A DNA stretch of 25,345 bases from a virus, in the IMG/VR virus record IMGVR_UViG_3300034190_002505, positions 1 to 25,345 of that record, one strand, 5' to 3'. A program made the position numbers and the translations under genes. Shown one piece after another: positions 3,129 through 16,317 of this stretch (positions are counted from its first letter, which is position 1; every line of letters starts with the position of its first letter). The notes under the pieces were generated by a model. The model saw nothing but the letters and a program-made list of their open reading frames with translations, made no database searches and had not been told where the DNA came from.

Positions 3129-3674
3129 ATGTTCATGAATAAGCATAGTCAAATAAACGTACTGTCATGGACATTAATAATTACTATACCTTTTATATTT
3201 CAATATACAGGGATAATAAATACCCAAGAATTACTTACTTCTAAAAGCAATGGATGGTGGTCAATACTTACAGGGCCATTACTTCACGGAAGCCCAACAC
3301 ACTTCGCAGGAAACATTACAGGATTAGTACTAGGAGTATCATTACTACTTAACATGTATAGTAAGAGAGCATACTGGATGGTAATCATCTTAGGATTCAT
3401 CTTACCATCAATAGTAATGTATGCAACAGGATTAAGATCACTTGGTATAAGTGGATTAGTCTTTACAGTAATATGGTTCATAATATACAGAGGCATGTTA
3501 TCAAGTCAGATCTTACGTAAGGTTATTGGGGTGTTAATGTTGATATTATATGGATCTACTCTAGCTAGTGCATTCCCTAAGTTGATGTCAAATGTAGCCT
3601 GGCAGTCACACATGTGTGGAGTAGTGCTTGCAATCTTTTTAGCGTTATATGATAAAATAAGGTTAAAAAATTAG
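3129..3674 (+). CDS. Rhomboid-family intramembrane serine protease, 181 aa
   Basis: The rhomboid fold is visible as about six hydrophobic segments with the family's motifs in order. His53-x4-His58-x3-Asn62 (HGSPTHFAGN) matches the helix-2 motif that supplies the oxyanion His and Asn. Gly-Ile-Ser-Gly (106-109) supplies the nucleophile Ser108. Ser-His-Met-Cys-Gly (160-164) supplies catalytic His161 and the helix-6 glycine. All catalytic positions are therefore present, and the protein should be active in the host inner membrane, cleaving transmembrane substrates. There is no cytoplasmic or extra domain, so this is a minimal rhomboid core of the size seen in short bacterial members. Two ATGs (3129, 3135) are possible. 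The gene follows a perfect palindrome and is followed by small membrane proteins. The substrate is unknown; superinfection control, host envelope protein cleavage or lysis timing are possible roles by inference. Confidence 0.88.
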   Translation: MFMNKHSQINVLSWTLIITIPFIFQYTGIINTQELLTSKSNGWWSILTGPLLHGSPTHFAGNITGLVLGVSLLLNMYSKRAYWMVIILGFILPSIVMYATGLRSLGISGLVFTVIWFIIYRGMLSSQILRKVIGVLMLILYGSTLASAFPKLMSNVAWQSHMCGVVLAIFLALYDKIRLKN

Positions 3675-3725: not shown

Positions 3726-3959
3726 ATGAAGTACATTAAACAACTGTTAGCAATAATTGTTAACTTTACAACTGGATTAGGATTTTATGGAATAGGACTT
3801 ATAGCAGTAGCTATTGGATTGTTATCTATTGGAATCGACTCTATTGCTTATGGGTTCATTGGTGCATTCGTGTACAAGAACTGGGAAACAATAGTGCCTC
3901 ACTTACTTAAAGCTTGGGAATTTGTTAAAGCAAAAGTTCTTGGATGGGTTAACGGGTAA
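3726..3959 (+). CDS. Small membrane protein with two hydrophobic segments, 77 aa (holin-like size)
   Basis: The sequence has a short basic N-terminus (Met-Lys-Tyr-Ile-Lys), hydrophobic runs at about residues 7-30 and 30-51 broken by small residues and one Asp, and a C-terminal amphipathic segment rich in Trp and Lys. Two adjacent membrane helices with charged ends in under 80 residues is the general form of many phage holins, but it is also that of unrelated small membrane proteins, so holin is only a suggestion. No endolysin gene is visible nearby to support it. The gene has its own promoter (3671-3702) and is followed by a strong terminator, making it a single-gene unit next to the rhomboid. 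Confidence 0.75.
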   Translation: MKYIKQLLAIIVNFTTGLGFYGIGLIAVAIGLLSIGIDSIAYGFIGAFVYKNWETIVPHLLKAWEFVKAKVLGWVNG

Positions 3960-4057: not shown

Positions 4058-4324
4058 ATGATAACATTTTTTAAAATAGTAGCAATCATTGGATTAATCT
4101 TTTTTCCAATAGTTAAATCAAAGAATAAAGGGGTTATAGAGTGGTTCTGGATAAAAGGAATAGTATTGGGTTTAAATTATGATTCAATGTACTTTGCAGT
4201 TAAAAAAGAGGATGGAGAGGATCAAGCATACAAACTTTACAACTTTCAATTCCATTTATTTATTGGAACTATAACAATGTCATTTTCAGTTAAGAAAGAT
4301 GATATAGCAATAAAAGAAAGCTAG
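4058..4324 (+). CDS. Hypothetical protein with N-terminal membrane anchor, 88 aa
   Basis: Residues 1-19 form one hydrophobic helix (MITFFKIVAIIGLIFFPIV) followed by a basic stretch (Lys-Ser-Lys-Asn-Lys), giving a probable N-out, C-in anchor. The remainder looks like a small beta domain, with a Trp-Phe-Trp-Ile-Lys-Gly stretch and later Tyr-Asn-Phe-Gln-Phe-His-Leu. Short proteins with this kind of centre recur in Bacteroidota phages as far as I remember, without known function. The TAG stop overlaps the GTG start of the following 52-aa ORF by one base, so the two are probably translated together from the promoter at 4010-4041. Confidence 0.7.
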   Translation: MITFFKIVAIIGLIFFPIVKSKNKGVIEWFWIKGIVLGLNYDSMYFAVKKEDGEDQAYKLYNFQFHLFIGTITMSFSVKKDDIAIKES

Positions 4325-4483: not shown

Positions 4484-4515
4484 TTAGGATTTTAATCTTA
4501 ATTGAACTATATTTG
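4484..4515 (+). promoter_or_regulatory. Promoter of the structured RNA
   Basis: TTAG (4484-4487), 20 bp, and TATATTTG followed by C (4508-4516). This -7 element is a perfect TAnnTTTG. No coding start lies within 400 bp downstream and a terminator intervenes, so it appears to drive only the RNA. Confidence 0.6.
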
Positions 4516-4519
4516 CATC

Positions 4520-4883
4520 AACATAATTATTACAGTGTTTTAACTGGTATAAAATCTGAAGCTAATTGATCAACGCATATTGATAGGGCACAGACGACCA
4601 GGGAGGTTTAAGTAATAATATTGAGTAACGCAGGAAACCTTTTACATATACGCTCAAGATTGGACTGGATACGGAACAAGTAGATCCTCCTGAATTAACA
4701 GATGTTATCAGTCCTTGCTAGAAATACACTGTCTTGAGGAAATTGTAATAAAAACTGTTCCAGAGCATAGGAAACCCCTAAAGCTCAAGGACTTTGCGTA
4801 TTAACTTTTTAAGTAATAAAGTTGTTTATATAAGTATTGTCTGTCTGAAATGTCTATTAGTTTATTCTAATAGGCATTTTTTT
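4520..4883 (+). ncRNA. Candidate structured noncoding RNA, about 360 nt
   Basis: The stretch has no supportable ORF but is bounded by a promoter and a strong terminator. Five mutually compatible helices can be drawn. A basal stem joins AAG-TAAT-ACGCA (4559-4577) with TGCGT-ATTA-CTT (4795-4807). Inside it are AGGTTT/AAACCT (4604-4609, 4635-4640), CTCAAGA/TCTTGAG (4653-4659, 4732-4738) enclosing GGACTG/CAGTCC (4662-4667, 4709-4714), and a hairpin GAGC-TAGG/CCTA-GCTC (4763-4786) with loop AAACC. This makes a multibranch junction. GTCCTTG/CAAGGAC (4711-4717, 4786-4792) and GGAACA/TGTTCC (4673-4678, 4756-4761) would be alternative or pseudoknot pairings. I compared it mentally with RNase P RNA, tmRNA, 6S RNA and group I introns and saw none of their signature sequences. 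Function unknown. Confidence 0.65.
4851..4883 (+). terminator. Rho-independent terminator of the structured RNA
   Basis: TGTCTATTAG and CTAATAGGCA form a 10-bp stem (one G-U pair) with a TTTATT loop and seven U residues. It separates the RNA from the operon that begins at 4943. Confidence 0.9.
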
Positions 4884-4892
4884 GTAAAAACA

Positions 4893-4924
4893 TTTGTGAG
4901 TTATATTCTTTTGTTATACATTAG
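4893..4924 (+). promoter_or_regulatory. Promoter of the 4943 operon
   Basis: TTTG (4893-4896), a 20-bp spacer and TACATTAG followed by C (4917-4925). The expected leader is about 13 nt to the ATG at 4943. It lies 9 bp after the RNA terminator's U-tract. Confidence 0.65.
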
Positions 4925-4942
4925 CAGAAACAAATACAAATT

Positions 4943-6388: not shown

Positions 6389-6569
6389 GCTAACCTTTGA
6401 AGAAGAATACTTCAAGCAGAATGATACCCTGGTTATGTCAAATATCAACGTGGTATTAACATCTGGAGTCAAGAAAGTATATGGAGCATGGTATCACAAA
6501 ATAATAAATAGAATAACATTAGGTTACTTCTGTAATTTAAGTTACATTTACAACGTAGAAATATTATGA
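6366..6569 (+). CDS. Hypothetical protein, 67 aa
   Basis: A small beta-rich protein that begins MERGTTFKLTFEEEYFKQND and contains NVVLTSGVKKVYGAWYHKI. Its C-terminal half is hydrophobic and aromatic (Leu-Gly-Tyr-Phe, Tyr-Ile-Tyr-Asn-Val-Glu). I have the impression of a recurring Bacteroidota-phage family, but with no known role. The start ATG is 23 bp inside the previous gene and the stop is shared with the next start (ATGA). Confidence 0.7.
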   Translation: MERGTTFKLTFEEEYFKQNDTLVMSNINVVLTSGVKKVYGAWYHKIINRITLGYFCNLSYIYNVEIL

Positions 6570-6733
6570 TGACAACAATAGAATTAAAGCCAGACGTATT
6601 AGAGTTCTTAAGAACAACAGGAACAGTATGGAGAGATGGTGAGCACGATGAGATATTCGTAGTAGGAGCAACAGTTTATAAACCAACAAATAAAGAAGGA
6701 TTTTACACAGTAGAATTTAGAGAAATACAATAA
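6566..6733 (+). CDS. Small hypothetical protein, 55 aa
   Basis: Two consecutive ATG codons open the frame, the first overlapping the previous stop. The product begins MMTTIELKPDVLEFLRTTG, then has a strand-rich part with Asp-Gly-Glu-His-Asp-Glu-Ile-Phe-Val-Val-Gly-Ala and ends in Phe-Arg-Glu-Ile-Gln. It stops one base before the chaperonin start codon, so it is the immediate upstream partner of the GroEL gene in the operon. No function is recognised. Confidence 0.65.
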   Translation: MMTTIELKPDVLEFLRTTGTVWRDGEHDEIFVVGATVYKPTNKEGFYTVEFREIQ

Positions 6734-6734
6734 A

Positions 6735-8315
6735 ATGACTGAAATTAAATTTGATAGAGAAGTAAGAGATGGCATTAAAGCAGGAGTAGATGCTCTGGCT
6801 AATGCAGTCAAAGTAACATTAGGCCCTAAAGGTCGTAATGTTATCATACATAGATTAAATGGTCAAGATGATCAAGTAACTAAAGATGGTGTCACAGTGG
6901 CAGATGCAATAGAACTTGAGGATGACTTAGAAAACATAGGAGCACAAGTAGTAAAGAAAGTTGCACAGAAGGCTAATAAGAATTCAGGTGACGGAACTAC
7001 AACAGCAACAGTATTAGCACAAGCTATACTAGAGGAAGGGTTAAAACTTGTTACGGCAGGTTATAACCCTTTGGACATTAAGAGAGGCATTGATAAAGCT
7101 ACGGATGTTATAGTTGCTCAGCTTGAGAGGACTAAGATTGAAGTAGCTTTTGACTCACCAATGATAGAACAGATTGCTACTATCTCAGCCAATAATGATC
7201 CTGCCATAGGTAAGATTGTTGCTGAAGCATTTCTCAGTGTGGGAACTGATGGTGCTGTAAGTGTAGAGGAAGGTAGTGGGTTTGAAACTGTTATTAATAA
7301 AGTTGACGGATTACAGTTTGACCGTGGATTATTAACTCCATTCTTCTCTACTTCCCCAGACAAGATAGAAGTTTCTATGCAGAACCCATTAATATTAGTA
7401 GTGGATGGAATGCTTAAAACAAAGGAACAGGCAATAGCAATATTAACTCCAGTAATTGATTCTAGGAGACCTTTATTTATAATTGCTGAAGATATTATAG
7501 GTGATGCATTATCTACTCTTACACTTAATAAATTGAAGGGTGGGCATCAAATAGCTGCTGCTAAAACACCTGGCTTTGGAACATACAGAAAAGAGTTAGC
7601 ATTGGATATAGCAACAGTAGTTGGTGCAGTATTAATACCTGAAGATAAGGTGGATGAAATAAAGCCTGAACATGTTGATGTTTTATTTGGAACAGCTTTA
7701 GCTATAAAGTCAGAACAAATGAGCACAGTAATCATGGGAGGTGTGTCAATAGACGGAGAAGTAGAGAAAAGGGTTAACGAGATTGACTTAAAGCTAACTG
7801 ATAAAAAGCTAACTACTTTCGAGGTAGATAAACTAAATGAAAGGAAAGCTAAATTAGGTGGAGGAGTTGCTGTAATAGAAGTTGGAGCAAAGTCTGAAAT
7901 TGATATGAAAGAATTGAAGGACAGAATTGATGATGCTAAATGTGCCGTAATAGCTGCACTGGAAGAAGGAGTTGTTATCGGTGGAGGATGTGCATTACTT
8001 AACTGTAAAGATCTAGTAGTGAACGTGGTAGAAAATTCCGACGAAAAAATAGGGGTGCAATTGATGATGAAGGCAATCGAAGCACCATTCAGAACGATAT
8101 GTAAGAACGCAGATGTTGGTTCAGATGTGATCATGAATCTAGTGTTAGTTCCAATAGAAAACTATGGATACAACGCTAAGACTAATGATATGGTTGATAT
8201 GGTTGAAGCAGGGATATTAGACCCGAAGAAGGTAACAAGGATAGCCCTTGAGAGTGCTGCCAGTGTGGCAGGAATATTGTTAACCACTGCATGTGCAGTA
8301 ATACAAAAACACTAA
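6735..8315 (+). CDS. groL: Phage-encoded chaperonin GroEL (Hsp60), 526 aa
   Basis: This is a full-length group I chaperonin with equatorial, intermediate and apical domains in the usual order. Nucleotide-site elements are intact: TLGPKGRNVII (28-38), Lys-Asp51-Gly-Val-Thr-Val, GDGTTTAT (85-92, Asp86), Asp400 in the RIDDAK segment and GVVIGGGCAL (412-421). In the apical substrate and co-chaperonin face, the E. coli Tyr199 and Tyr203 positions are Leu199 and Phe203, and Phe204 is kept. Two features are unusual. The C-terminus ends at IQKH without the Gly-Gly-Met tail, and the inter-ring contact position equivalent to E. coli Glu461 is Gly462. It should assist folding of phage (virion) proteins with the GroES-like protein encoded 1.5 kb downstream. 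It starts one base after the previous stop; its TAA overlaps the next ATG. Confidence 0.97.
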   Translation: MTEIKFDREVRDGIKAGVDALANAVKVTLGPKGRNVIIHRLNGQDDQVTKDGVTVADAIELEDDLENIGAQVVKKVAQKANKNSGDGTTTATVLAQAILEEGLKLVTAGYNPLDIKRGIDKATDVIVAQLERTKIEVAFDSPMIEQIATISANNDPAIGKIVAEAFLSVGTDGAVSVEEGSGFETVINKVDGLQFDRGLLTPFFSTSPDKIEVSMQNPLILVVDGMLKTKEQAIAILTPVIDSRRPLFIIAEDIIGDALSTLTLNKLKGGHQIAAAKTPGFGTYRKELALDIATVVGAVLIPEDKVDEIKPEHVDVLFGTALAIKSEQMSTVIMGGVSIDGEVEKRVNEIDLKLTDKKLTTFEVDKLNERKAKLGGGVAVIEVGAKSEIDMKELKDRIDDAKCAVIAALEEGVVIGGGCALLNCKDLVVNVVENSDEKIGVQLMMKAIEAPFRTICKNADVGSDVIMNLVLVPIENYGYNAKTNDMVDMVEAGILDPKKVTRIALESAASVAGILLTTACAVIQKH

Positions 8316-11505: not shown

Positions 11506-13856
11506 TGAGAAAGTTTAATTCCATACAGACAGAGATAACTGAAGAGTTACTTAAAAAGATGCCTCGCGAAGAGAAGCAGGATCTGTTAGATAGTATAGAT
11601 TCAATTCAATTCATACAGAACTTAGCTAATCCAAAGAGGAAATTTGCTAAAGACCTTGATAGATGGGATAACCCTCTTTTACCCCTAACCAGTTTAGATC
11701 CAGATATGAATGTCAGAGTTCTGGATCCAAAAGGCAGAATAGCCATAGACTTAACTAATCCACATATCTTAAGTGATATGGATTACTTTAGACCTTCAGC
11801 TATATTTTTTGAAAAACACAACTGTTATACTAAGTTGTTTCCAAATAAAAACCCTAACTCAACATACTTTAAGTTTTGGGCAGAGGAAGCAAGAAGGTGT
11901 AGAGAAGGATATGTGAGAGAATACGATGGTGAATGGATACCTGGTAATTACTATTTCCAGTTAAACTATGCACCACTGCTTAGAGCAGAGATTATAAAAG
12001 GAACTAAACAGGCTGATAGGCTTGAAGGATTTGCATACGTATATGATGCAGATTACTGGTTCTTTCATTATTGTGAACAAGCTAGAGCACAGGGTATGCA
12101 CGGAGCTAACCTTAAAAGAAGGGGTTGTGGTTACTCAGTAAAGGCATCTAACATGTTAGCCAAGAACTTCATACTTGGTGATACCACTAAAGCAAAAGCA
12201 AAAGTTAAATCATTCGCGATAGCAAATGAGAAAGAATACCTAATTAAGGATGGTATATTAAACAAGTTCGTCAATGTAATTGATTGGAACGCTACACACA
12301 CGCCATGGCCACGCATAAGATCACTTAAGGATTCTCTTAATGATATGCACTGGAGAATGGGACGTAAAGATAATGTACGTGGTACAGAGGTTGGAGTCCT
12401 GAATGAAGTAATGGGTGTGACATTAAAGAATGATCCACAAAAGGCAAGGGGTAAAAGGGGTGCATTAGTACTCTGGGAAGAAGCAGGTAAATTTTCTGAC
12501 TTCCTTACAGCTTGGAAGATTGCTCAACCATCAGTAGAAGAATCTGGATTTGCATTTGGATTCATGATGGCAGGTGGTACAGGTGGTGTCGAGGGTGGAG
12601 CATTTGAAGGATTAGAAGAAATCTTCTATAACTCTTCAGGTTATAATATTATGTCTATGCCTAATGTGTTTGATAGAAACACTAATGGTAAAGGTAGATG
12701 TGCATTCTTCTTTGGTACATATCTTAACTATCGTGGTAAGATGGATAAGAATGGTAACAGTGATGTTATTGGTGCAATGATTGAGATCAACAAAAAAAGA
12801 ACTAGTATTAAAACTGGTGCTTCAGATCCTAATGCAATTGTACAAGCTAAAGCTGAGGAGCCAATTACACCTCAAGAAGCAATCATGCGTACAGAAGGGT
12901 CAGCCTTTCCTGTATCAGATCTTAGAGATTACTTAGAAGATATCATGCCAAATATGCAGTCATTTGTAGACTCACATTATGTAGGCTCTTTAGTTTATGA
13001 TGAGAGTGGATTTACTAAATGGCTAAATGATAATAGAAAGACTCCAATTAGAGACTTCCCATTTAAAGTAAGAGGAGGCTCTAGTGCAGATGGTGGTGTT
13101 GAGATATTTGAGATGCCTAACAAAGATAGAGATGGTAAAGTGTTTGCTAATAGATATATTGGTGGGATTGATCCAATTGATAATGATTATACTATTGGTG
13201 GATCTCTTGCTTCTATAATTATATTTGACTTATGGACTGATAAAATTGTTGCTGAATATACTGGAAGGCCAGTTATGGCAGATGAGTTTTATGAGATATG
13301 TCTGAGGCTTACTTCATTTTACAATGCCCAAAGCAATTATGAAAATAACCTCAAGGGTCTTTTCACATACTTCTCCAACCACAACGCCTTGTACTTATTG
13401 GCTGATAGCCCAGATATATTACGGGATATGGAGATTGTCAAGAGTACTTTATTTGGAAATAGAGCTAAAGGTACACGTACAACTAAAGAAGTAATTAAGT
13501 TAGGTAAGACACTTCAGAGACAATGGATGTTAACTCCATACGAAGAAGAAAGATATGATGAGGCTACTGGAGAGACTAGCACAATGACTATACCTAATTT
13601 AAGAAGGATTAGGAGCATTGGATACATAAAAGAGTGTATCGCATGGAATCCAGATATAAATACAGATAGGGTCTCTGCTATGGATATGGTGATGATACTT
13701 AGAGAAGATAGGGCTAAGTACACAAATAAATATGAAGAACCAATAAATGAGAACGTAAATGATTTCTTTCATGATGATGAGTTTCTAGATAGCAATTGGC
13801 AAAAGGCTGTGCGTAAGATGGATAACTCTAATAATGATGGATTTGGAATCATTTAG
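11505..13856 (+). CDS. terL: Terminase large subunit (TerL), 783 aa
   Basis: The ATPase-nuclease motor that packages DNA into the prohead at the portal. After an extended N-terminal region (about 1-190), a deviant Walker A segment (KRRGCGYSVKASN, 204-216) is followed by a Walker B with ALVLWEEAGKF (320-330, catalytic Glu in the Glu-Glu pair). Then comes a stretch with FGFMMAGGTGG (351-361) and the C-terminal RNase H-like nuclease, with Asp556 in the IGGIDPIDND motif, Glu613 (YENN) and Asp727 (RVSAMD) as likely metal ligands. The long N-terminus and the Lys-Arg-Arg-Gly-Cys-Gly form of the P-loop are as I recall from crAss-like and related Bacteroidota phages. It starts one base inside the previous stop. 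The portal gene follows 61 bp downstream. Confidence 0.93.
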   Translation: MRKFNSIQTEITEELLKKMPREEKQDLLDSIDSIQFIQNLANPKRKFAKDLDRWDNPLLPLTSLDPDMNVRVLDPKGRIAIDLTNPHILSDMDYFRPSAIFFEKHNCYTKLFPNKNPNSTYFKFWAEEARRCREGYVREYDGEWIPGNYYFQLNYAPLLRAEIIKGTKQADRLEGFAYVYDADYWFFHYCEQARAQGMHGANLKRRGCGYSVKASNMLAKNFILGDTTKAKAKVKSFAIANEKEYLIKDGILNKFVNVIDWNATHTPWPRIRSLKDSLNDMHWRMGRKDNVRGTEVGVLNEVMGVTLKNDPQKARGKRGALVLWEEAGKFSDFLTAWKIAQPSVEESGFAFGFMMAGGTGGVEGGAFEGLEEIFYNSSGYNIMSMPNVFDRNTNGKGRCAFFFGTYLNYRGKMDKNGNSDVIGAMIEINKKRTSIKTGASDPNAIVQAKAEEPITPQEAIMRTEGSAFPVSDLRDYLEDIMPNMQSFVDSHYVGSLVYDESGFTKWLNDNRKTPIRDFPFKVRGGSSADGGVEIFEMPNKDRDGKVFANRYIGGIDPIDNDYTIGGSLASIIIFDLWTDKIVAEYTGRPVMADEFYEICLRLTSFYNAQSNYENNLKGLFTYFSNHNALYLLADSPDILRDMEIVKSTLFGNRAKGTRTTKEVIKLGKTLQRQWMLTPYEEERYDEATGETSTMTIPNLRRIRSIGYIKECIAWNPDINTDRVSAMDMVMILREDRAKYTNKYEEPINENVNDFFHDDEFLDSNWQKAVRKMDNSNNDGFGII

Positions 13857-13917
13857 CTATAATAGGAGAAGCAATATTTTTAATAAATTGATTAAATTTA
13901 CATAATTATAATAAGAT

Positions 13918-16317
13918 ATGTCAACAGTAAAAAACTTTCCAGCACAAAAATTGTCTTTCAAAAAGAAAGGTAAGCAATGGCGTAGAGACCATTTAGATTG
14001 GGCAGATAACAATAGTTACCTGAACAACAGTGCTGTGAGAAGAAAATTAAAGAATAAGAAAATTAATCTTAACTTGTATAACGGGAAGTTGGATATTGCC
14101 GATATGAAGCTTATTTTAAATCCTGGTGATTTAGAGAAGTTTTATGTACCTGATGCAGTTCAGCATTACCCTATTATCACACCAAGAGTCAATGTACTTG
14201 TAGGTGAAGAGAAGAGACGTAAGTTTGACTGGTCAGTACAAATAGTTAATCCAGATACTATATCTAAGATTAAAGAAGATAAGAAGAAATTAGTTGACGC
14301 TAAGCTCATGGAGATGTTACAGTCAGATGTATCAGATGAGGAGCTAGAAAAAGAACTAATGAAGTATGGTGATTATATTAATTTTGATTACCAAGATTTA
14401 CGTGAGAAGAGAGCTAATCTCTTAATGCGTCACTACATTAGTAAGTTAGATATGAAGATTCAATTCCAACAAGGTTTCAAAGACGCCTTAATAATGGGAG
14501 AAGAGATCTACATGTTTGACATTGTTAAAGGTGAAGTAATATTCGAGAAATTAAATCCATTAAAAGTTCACACATTACGTAGTGGCTTTTCAAATAAGAT
14601 AGAAGATTCAGACGTTATAGTAATAGATGACTTCTGGAGTCCAGGTAAAATTCAAGATACATTCTACAACGACCTTAGTGATATGGAAGTTAAGAAGCTT
14701 GATGAAGGAAGCTGGACAGGTGGACAAACTAATGCAGATGGAGTATCTGAAGCTATTGATGATGAGGCAGGATTAAGATTGCTTAACAGAGAAGCTATGG
14801 ATGACTACATGGAATCAACTGGTATATTTACAGCCAAGGGTTCTGAGGGTAGAAATACTTATACTGATACATATGGGAACGTAAGAGTCTTAAGAATGTT
14901 TTGGAGAAGTATGAAGAAAATACTTAAGGTAGAATACTTCGATGAATTAGGAAAGAAGCAAACTAAATTTAGAGCTGAAGACTATATAGTTGACAAAGCT
15001 ATGGGTGAGGTTGCTAAAGCAATGTGGATACCACAATGGTGGAAAGGTGTTAAGATAGGTGAAGATACTTACTTACAAATCAAGCCAAAGGAAATACAAT
15101 ATAACAAACTAGATCAACCAAGTTTCAATTCATGTGGAATAGTTGGTCAAGTATATAACTCAGGTGACGAAGAAGCTGTTACTTTAGTTGATAGAGCAAA
15201 ACCATTCCAATATCTTTATGATATATCATGGTACAGAGTTAACGAGGCATTAAGTAAGTACTTAGGGTCGATCGTTGAATTAGATTTAGCAAAAGTTCCA
15301 ACAGGATGGTCAGTGACTAAATGGTTATACTTTGCAAGAAAGTCTGGTATCTCTGTTGTAGATAGTTTTAAAGAAGGACAAAAAGGAATGGCTAAAGGTA
15401 GGCTAGCAGGATCTGTTGGTAATACTACTGGAAGAATATTAGAGCAAAAGGTTGGTGATTTCATTCAGACTCATATTGATATGATGGAATTTGCTAAAGC
15501 ACAAATGGATGAGATAACAGGTGTTTCAAGACAACGCCTAGGGCAAGTTGAGAATAGGGAAACTGTCGGTGGGGTAGAAAGAGCTGTATCTCAATCCAAT
15601 CATATTACTGAGGAATTATTCACTATGCACGACTGGTGTAAGAAGAGATGTTTCCAGATGTTAATTGAAACTGCTAAGATTGCTCTTAAAGGTAAACATA
15701 CTAAGTTCTCTTATATTGGCGATGATATGACTCGTCAAATTGCAGAGATAGATGGTGATCAGTTTGCTGAAGAAGAATACGGATTAATGGTATCTAATGA
15801 TGATGAGATTAATCAGTTACAACAAAAGCTAGATGGTATGGTTCAAATGGGACTTCAAAACCAAATGCTTTCTTTTTCAACTGCAATCAAAATATACAAT
15901 TCTCCTTCTGTTAGAGAGATTCAGAGACTCATTGAAAAGGATGAGACTCAAATGAAAGAATCACAAGCTAAGCAGGCTGAGGATCAAAACAAACAAATGC
16001 AAGCTCAATTGGAGCAACAAGCTCTTGAGAAACAAACAGAACAGAATCTTGACTTGCAGAAGTTTAATAGAGAAGACGAAACTAAAAGATATATAGCTGA
16101 GTTACAAGCAGAGACTGCTAGACTAAGCCAAGAGAATAATGATAGAGGGGTTGATAATGATGATGCAGATTTTGCTAAATTTGAATCTGAGCTAGGTATT
16201 AAAAAACAAGCTCAAGCTAATGATATGAAAAAGCATAATGATGTGATGTCAAGAAAGGACAGAGAGATAGAAATCAAAAACAAAATAGCAAATAAACCAC
16301 AAACAACATCTAAATAA
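13918..16317 (+). CDS. Portal protein, 799 aa
   Basis: The gene follows TerL and encodes a large mixed alpha/beta protein ending in a Gln-, Lys- and Glu-rich coiled tail (from about residue 670), the form of portals in large podovirus-like phages of Bacteroidota. An early stretch with YPIITPRVNVLVGEEKRRKF (about 83-102) resembles the conserved portal segment on which the monomer is built, and MDEITGVSRQRLGQVENRET (about 530-549) resembles the segment near the stem and clip. Its role is to form the dodecameric DNA entry ring, bind TerL and attach the neck. The 61-bp gap before it contains TTTAGCTATAATA (13852-13864), a near-miss of the promoter -7 pattern. No major capsid protein gene lies between the portal and the fibre genes in this window. 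Assignment is by position, length and composition. Confidence 0.85.
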   Translation: MSTVKNFPAQKLSFKKKGKQWRRDHLDWADNNSYLNNSAVRRKLKNKKINLNLYNGKLDIADMKLILNPGDLEKFYVPDAVQHYPIITPRVNVLVGEEKRRKFDWSVQIVNPDTISKIKEDKKKLVDAKLMEMLQSDVSDEELEKELMKYGDYINFDYQDLREKRANLLMRHYISKLDMKIQFQQGFKDALIMGEEIYMFDIVKGEVIFEKLNPLKVHTLRSGFSNKIEDSDVIVIDDFWSPGKIQDTFYNDLSDMEVKKLDEGSWTGGQTNADGVSEAIDDEAGLRLLNREAMDDYMESTGIFTAKGSEGRNTYTDTYGNVRVLRMFWRSMKKILKVEYFDELGKKQTKFRAEDYIVDKAMGEVAKAMWIPQWWKGVKIGEDTYLQIKPKEIQYNKLDQPSFNSCGIVGQVYNSGDEEAVTLVDRAKPFQYLYDISWYRVNEALSKYLGSIVELDLAKVPTGWSVTKWLYFARKSGISVVDSFKEGQKGMAKGRLAGSVGNTTGRILEQKVGDFIQTHIDMMEFAKAQMDEITGVSRQRLGQVENRETVGGVERAVSQSNHITEELFTMHDWCKKRCFQMLIETAKIALKGKHTKFSYIGDDMTRQIAEIDGDQFAEEEYGLMVSNDDEINQLQQKLDGMVQMGLQNQMLSFSTAIKIYNSPSVREIQRLIEKDETQMKESQAKQAEDQNKQMQAQLEQQALEKQTEQNLDLQKFNREDETKRYIAELQAETARLSQENNDRGVDNDDADFAKFESELGIKKQAQANDMKKHNDVMSRKDREIEIKNKIANKPQTTSK

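Follow-up and report, generated by a model that had tools for sequence, protein, structure and literature searches.

A structured RNA supported by covariation at an exchangeable slot upstream of groEL in crAss-like phages

In the viral record IMGVR_UViG_3300034190_002505, analyzed here over a single stretch of 25,345 bases (the window), about 360 nt without an ORF lie between a rhomboid/membrane module and a chaperonin operon, raising the question of whether this interval encodes a stand-alone structured RNA with its own promoter and terminator, as an original prediction made from sequence alone had proposed. The window phage is a crAss-like phage (Crassvirales, Steigviridae-related), as established from its terminase and portal protein, the terminase reaching at most 43% identity, with cr111_1 and other Steigviridae as its best matches. 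The predicted setting held on inspection of the ORF list and flanking genes, and neither strand has a listed ORF reaching 60 aa between 4325 and 4942. The phage encodes a rhomboid-family protein (3129-3674) and a GroEL (6735-8315), the latter with no more than about 47% identity to any GroEL in the phage collection. The features of the locus are as follows.

3129-3674 (rhomboid), 3726-3959 (membrane protein) and 4058-4324 (p88): small-gene block 5' of the RNA
4484-4516, plus strand: Bacteroidota-type promoter, consisting of a weak -33 box TTAG, N20 and TATATTTGC (-7 box, 4508-4516)
4508-4884, plus strand: putative noncoding transcription unit, with Bacteroidota-type promoter, body of about 285 nt and terminator
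4522-4806, plus strand: structured RNA body, designated type A, about 285 nt, defined by a covariance model, without an ORF or Rfam match
4820-4884, plus strand: tail AAGUUGUUU, then an intrinsic terminator (stem at about 4852-4876, T-run to 4884)
3' of the RNA: p115-p80-groEL block, giving the slot order p88 - RNA - p115 - groEL

The promoter had been described as perfect, which held for the -7 box, TATATTTGC at 4508-4516 being an exact match to the TAnnTTTG consensus; the -33 box is weak, and the -7 motif alone is no rarer than chance (3 in the window versus 5.65 expected). The pattern of a Bacteroidota housekeeping promoter (TTTG-N19-21-TAnnTTTG) is nonetheless met, with a degenerate -33 box (TTAG) in the window. 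Related loci repeat TTTG-N20-TAnnTTTGC, exactly or nearly so, at the corresponding position, and the full TTTG-N19-21-TAnnTTTG motif is present in L005, L013, L064, L134, crAss001, and others. As inferred from sequence, without a transcript having been shown, the RNA probably begins a few nucleotides past 4516, where helix P0 starts (4526). The predicted strong terminator was recovered as an inverted repeat followed by a T-run, whose stem is preserved through compensatory substitutions, reading GTCTATTAG..CTAATAGGC in the window, GTCCATTGA..TCAATGGAC in L005, and CTAGAG..CTCTAG in L003; it went unreported by a simple terminator scanner. A separate promoter is likely for the downstream operon of the window: TTTG-N20-TACATTAGC, at about 4893-4925, conserved in L005.

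The minimum-energy fold of the interval is not unusual as compared to shuffled sequences (z = -1.4 for 364 nt and +0.6 for 271 nt). Helices seen in a single sequence could thus be chance, so single-sequence folding was dropped as structural evidence and comparative evidence was required. Relatives were gathered via p115 and GroEL protein searches, two DNA patterns, and a GroEL alignment. DNA profiles detected type A upstream of the groEL block in L005, L003 (also L002 and L004), L012, L013, L024, L028, L030, L021, and L025, and a divergent group, designated A', in L064, L066, L070, and L093. L013 carries a nearly unchanged copy of the central ~130 nt of the window RNA, although its GroEL is only 60% identical. 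A candidate from Andersenbacteria (L071) was rejected, as the search pattern had picked only a 33-nt stretch, judged to be chance.

Covariation was evaluated in an alignment of 13 type A sequences from related phages. The assembled structure comprises 66 pairs in 12 helices, with 94.3% standard pairs and changes on both sides in 38 of the 66 pairs; none of 500 shuffles matched the observed pairing, both-sided changes, or covariation score, and pairing fell to 36-48% in a control in which helix partners were slid. This structure was read from the same alignment as the pair count, which favors structure, and an unbiased helix scan with its own null served as an independent check. In the scan, three or more covarying pairs were found in 10 helices; 100 structure-free alignments simulated along the same tree gave a mean of 0.67 such helices and a maximum of 4. 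P4, P0, P5, P1a, P1c, PK-L, and P1b ranked near the top. Testing was done at the level of helices because per-pair column covariation with a tree null is underpowered with 13 sequences. The type A element is a structured RNA with compensatory changes beyond those expected from phylogeny. A covariance model of type A (R1) recovered 15 loci at >250 bits, with one copy per contig. The structural elements are listed below, all on the plus strand.

4526-4532 ATTATTA with 4613-4619 TAATAAT: P0, which closes the 5' domain; both-sided change in 5 of 7 pairs
4544-4547 with 4598-4601: P1a; both-sided change in 4 of 4 pairs, 100% paired
4554-4558 with 4591-4595: P1b; 3 covarying pairs
4565-4570 with 4579-4584: P1c hairpin; 3 covarying pairs
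4573-4577 ACGCA (P1c loop) with 4795-4799 TGCGT (3' tail): pseudoknot PK-L; 3 covarying pairs, 95% paired
4533-4538 CAGTGT with 4726-4731 ACACTG: P7, probable second pseudoknot; 100% paired in 13 of 13 sequences
4603-4612: near-invariant purine-rich segment GAGGUU(U/A)AAG; GAGGUU invariant in 13 of 13 type A sequences
4642-4646 with 4744-4748: P3; one pair covaries three ways (C-G, U-A, A-U)
4653-4659 with 4732-4738: P4; 7 of 7 pairs covary
4662-4671 with 4706-4714: P5; 5 covarying pairs
4673-4675 with 4685-4687: P5a hairpin; 1 covarying pair, loop ACAAGUA invariant
4690-4692 with 4699-4701: P5b hairpin; 1 covarying pair, loop AAUUAA invariant or nearly so
4763-4786: P8 hairpin, with a variable sequence; both-sided change in 5 of 6 pairs
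4788-4806: 3' tail motif AAGGRnnUUUGYGUAUY; types B and D, described below, have similar tails

Both-sided change is exemplified by P0 of L021, which reads ATTGTTGC:GCAACAAT, and by PK-L, which appears in relatives as ACACA:TGTGT, ACAAA:TTTGT, and ACAGGAG:CTCCTGT. P7 is termed only probable because its counted pairs vary solely by one-sided changes of the G-U type; in L021, a pair adjoining P7 is changed on both sides (GCAGTGT:ACACTGC). The original prediction had included a closing stem of 4559-4577 with 4795-4807, the core of which is real (4573-4577 with 4795-4799) and takes the form of a hairpin-loop pseudoknot. Its multibranch fold with possible pseudoknots resolves to two pseudoknots, PK-L supported by covariation and P7 probable. 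A second ACGCA, at about 4629-4633, becomes ACACA in step with the first copy in several relatives and could possibly compete with PK-L, perhaps as an alternative fold. As a partner for TGCGT it was rejected in favor of the first copy, since it is missing in L013 and A'. A long-range GGAACA:TGTTCC helix was likewise discarded, as it is not kept in L024 or L028. The GAGGUU(U/A)AAG segment may conceivably be a ribosome or protein contact.

Searches for known families were negative. Rfam 15 at the gathering threshold returned tRNAs only and no family for the RNA; with permissive thresholds, the best non-tRNA hits remained below gathering, and weak hits to BTnc201 and Qrr were rejected because they cover only the terminator and A+T-rich tail. 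ARAGORN found neither tRNA nor tmRNA in the window RNA, and blastn of types A, B, and C against annotated phages gave no credible match. The original prediction had noted no signatures of RNase P, tmRNA, 6S RNA, or group I introns, which held under permissive Infernal searches and ARAGORN. Of the checks that it named, two have now been run: comparison of homologous loci, which gave strong covariation in its support, and an Infernal scan against Rfam, in which a known family would have refuted it and none was matched. Its proposal of a new phage regulatory or structural RNA is thus well supported as regards a new structured RNA, on the basis of the Rfam-negative result, covariation, promoter, and synteny.

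A second conserved noncoding RNA, designated type B, has the same neighbors in eight contigs (L023, L026, L031, L033, L034, L035, L037, and L039), the synteny being fixed for both A and B. Covariation is weaker than in type A, with four helices having at least three covarying pairs versus 0.78 in the null; the pair count gave 83.8% pairing and 52 both-sided cells, matched by 0 of 500 shuffles. A form designated B' occurs in the more distant L134-136, where P0 covaries further (GAATT:AATTC). The GAGGUU segment is not strictly kept, reading GAUAGUU in L037 and GAGUU in B'. Type B loci were not found by the covariance model of type A. Hits of the type B pattern in L047-L050, L052, L054, L055, L059, and L060 were rejected, as they showed no RNA beyond the pattern.

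On a phage tree of GroEL and the neighboring 128-aa protein, A and B are interspersed, requiring at least three switches, and placement of B as one clade was rejected (AU p = 1.8e-9). In L023, upstream p88, downstream p115 (68%), and the flanking DNA (72-81%) are closest to those of L024, which is A-type, but only B loci match the RNA body (78-84%), showing that the RNA body alone was exchanged between A-type flanks. Directly after its B-type RNA, L023 carries a gene for an 83-aa membrane protein (973-1224), of which L024, with an A-type RNA, keeps only the first ~20 codons (6556-6615). Trees and flanks together show that the slot is an exchangeable cassette in which A and B have replaced each other at least three times. 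Exchange among several alternative RNAs is a refinement that was not visible in the original prediction and, to our knowledge, alternative structured RNAs exchanged at one locus have not been described previously.

An AAGUUGUUU-type tail and terminator follow both type A and type B RNAs, with terminator stems that are unrelated in sequence between clades. The predicted stand-alone character, with a dedicated terminator, holds for the window and most relatives and fails for the A' phages, L023, and L134-136, in which the RNA has no terminator and a short ORF, differing between lineages, starts within tens of nucleotides. In one relative, L022, the RNA is apparently absent from profile and covariance-model searches. 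This groEL-bearing phage (L022 / L130 1-763) seemingly lacks the rhomboid-p88-RNA block, and a minus-strand gene adjoins its small p115 operon.

Two further elements occupy comparable positions. Type C is a third conserved sequence of ~340 nt upstream of p115 (L137 2279-2620, L138 3472-3820, and L144 3189-3530), heading a tRNA array with 8-9 tRNA matches in L137. With only three similar sequences known, type C is a positional counterpart only, RNA-like but without an established structure. Type D is an unannotated, conserved noncoding stretch at about 660-995, within 651-1000, of the cultured crAss001 (L073, MH675552), with counterparts in cr112_1, cr128_1, and cr111_1; it sits behind a TTTG-N20-TATGTTTGC promoter and before gp3 and the crAss001 tRNA array. 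The 49-aa gp3 directly after RNA D is annotated as a 'putative beta-fructosidase', which looks doubtful. A stem of type D shows a double substitution between crAss001 and cr128_1 (AGCAC:GTGCT to AGCCT:AGGCT). The type D tail, AAGGGAU..UAUAC, resembles those of A and B, and the cr128_1 tail GGGAUAACUAUA is identical to that of L023. HMM cross-hits among A, B, and D are in register at the 3' end, with E values of 0.0014-0.12 in a 13-RNA set and only ~0.5-0.6 against all loci. Because the cross-hits are in register but weak against all loci, A, B, and D, which share the 3' motif, are treated as probably related and may be one deeply diverged family; sequence homology is weak and the relationship is not proven. 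No such RNA was found at the slot in the cultured or complete relatives phi14:2, DAC15, and cr126_1.

The best overall explanation is a trans-acting, exchangeable noncoding structured RNA of crAss-like phages, a reading that the balance of evidence favors by a modest margin and for which no transcript has been seen. The host-type promoter directly upstream, which recurs in relatives, suggests by its consensus that host RNA polymerase would make the RNA without phage factors. In the fold, which covariation shows, P0 closes a 5' domain and P3-P4-P5 make up a long arm; the pseudoknot between the loop and the 3' tail, probably with a second one, holds the two together. Independence from the neighboring genes, and hence action in trans, is inferred because the downstream gene changes and a terminator and separate downstream promoter are usually present; it is the synteny that is shown. 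In the proposed mechanism, the slot is an exchangeable cassette at which A and B replace each other, once as the RNA body alone; the RNAs that alternate there would be equivalent in function, with the host or competing phages selecting among them. A conserved partner may be bound by the motifs that are invariant and single-stranded, namely GAGGUU, GGAAACC, ACAAGUA, and AAUUAA.

The first guess for that partner, held with low confidence, is the host translation or tRNA-handling machinery, a suggestion resting on type C heading a tRNA array, type D preceding the crAss001 array, the similarity of GAGGU to the Shine-Dalgarno core, and the precedent of GOLLD. Types C (L137) and D (crAss001) do lie near tRNA islands. 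Among the A and B loci scanned, tRNAs lie several kb from the RNA in L012, L026, and the L064 contig, and none was detected in the scanned sequence around L007, L028, and L035. The B-type phage L026 carries 21 tRNA genes in one array (13017-15248), downstream of the groEL block. The translation idea is weakened by the looser conservation of GAGGUU in type B and by the lack of tRNAs in the scanned sequence of most A loci. Against the best explanation as a whole, a leader role is not excluded in A', L023, and L134-136, where the short ORF directly follows, and L022 seems to be without the RNA.

Several rival explanations were considered, ordered here from a defense decoy through RNA-only assembly and a cis leader to an origin RNA. 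An anti-defense or exclusion RNA would act as a decoy soaking up or blocking a host defense component or a factor of superinfecting phages; recombination would then trade A and B as two different specificities. In its favor are the clean exchange of cassettes between conserved flanks at a single slot, the apparent absence in L022, and the existence of phage RNA-based anti-CRISPRs (PMC10651486); it is considered unlikely, as the core hardly changes within a type despite ~50-60% GroEL identity, unlike an arms-race gene, and no known small-RNA family was recognized in Rfam. Also unlikely is a GOLLD/ROOL/OLE-like structure, a scaffold or cage made of RNA only that assembles by loop-loop contacts. 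Such a role would fit the intricate pseudoknots, a kissing contact that the P1c loop may make with the 3'-tail loop, the phage origin, and the tRNA-island neighborhood of C and D, with precedent (PMC12286853). However, ROOL (659 nt) and GOLLD (>800 nt) are at least twice as long as the RNA, the loop contact may be intramolecular, and Rfam gave no match to GOLLD, ROOL, or OLE.

A cis-acting leader, either riboswitch or attenuator, of the downstream gene finds support in L064, L066, L070, L093, L023, and L134-136, where an ORF lies within tens of nucleotides without a terminator. This reading is very unlikely, as the constant downstream gene in cis expected of such elements is not observed (the following gene may be a 70-aa membrane protein, an 83-aa membrane protein, another ORF, or p115), a terminator and separate promoter usually intervene, and terminator stems are unrelated between clades. 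A replication-origin RNA, serving as an R-loop primer or copy-control RNA, was suggested by a 98-kb contig (L102-L106), in which, at about 56-58 kb, two divergent gene blocks meet at a GC-skew minimum 2-4 kb from the RNA. Skew follows gene orientation, so the minimum need not be an origin, and a folded RNA product is what the covariation and the invariant loops point to; this alternative is rated slightly lower still. Lastly, the interval might hold no functional RNA, being a degenerate gene or chance A+T-rich intergene, as would be consistent with a minimum-energy fold no better than shuffles; covariation, conservation, promoter, and synteny all but exclude this possibility, which is refuted by the pair-count test.

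Among known systems, ROOL and GOLLD are the nearest in kind, being noncoding RNAs carried by phages, with several pseudoknots and no known function, and frequently situated close to tRNA islands, as are C and D (PMC12286853); GOLLD binds ribosomes in pull-downs (PMC12286853). The new RNA differs in its length of 285-360 nt (versus ~660 nt for ROOL and >800 nt for GOLLD), in having no match to the Rfam models of GOLLD, ROOL, or OLE, in its host phylum, inferred to be Bacteroidota, and in having alternatives swapped at one locus. Racr anti-CRISPRs are likewise solitary RNA genes of phages acting in trans, but these mimic CRISPR repeats (PMC10651486), while the new RNA has a large pseudoknotted fold. 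RNase P RNA, tmRNA, 6S RNA, and group I introns are also independently folded and of comparable length, and tmRNA and RNase P also use pseudoknots; none gave a permissive Infernal match on the window RNA, and the tRNA-like domain and tag reading frame that define tmRNA were not found by ARAGORN or Rfam. In the literature searched, in which most subscription papers were beyond reach, no paper on this RNA was found, nor any description of a structured noncoding RNA in crAss-like phages beyond tRNAs. The RNA is therefore regarded as new as a class, within a broader kind that is already known, the elaborate phage RNAs without assigned function, of which GOLLD and ROOL are examples.

Few phages of the human gut are as abundant as the crAss-like phages, of which crAss001 was the first to be cultured. 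Strand-specific RNA-seq of Bacteroides intestinalis with crAss001 has already been published in a study that also covers DAC15 (PMC12118408), and existence of the RNA is testable at once in these data, given the candidate counterpart in this cultured phage. A bolder reading, on which doubt slightly outweighs confidence, is that Steigviridae-related Crassvirales keep a slot for one structured RNA at the head of the late/tRNA arm, with A-D as isofunctional or deeply homologous recombining cassettes, one of them in the human-gut crAss001, together forming a new class that would act in trans on a conserved bacterial target. Apart from that reading, the near letter-for-letter conservation of the RNA over large divergence and its exchange as a unit suggest that it may serve an important, as yet unrecognized step of infection.
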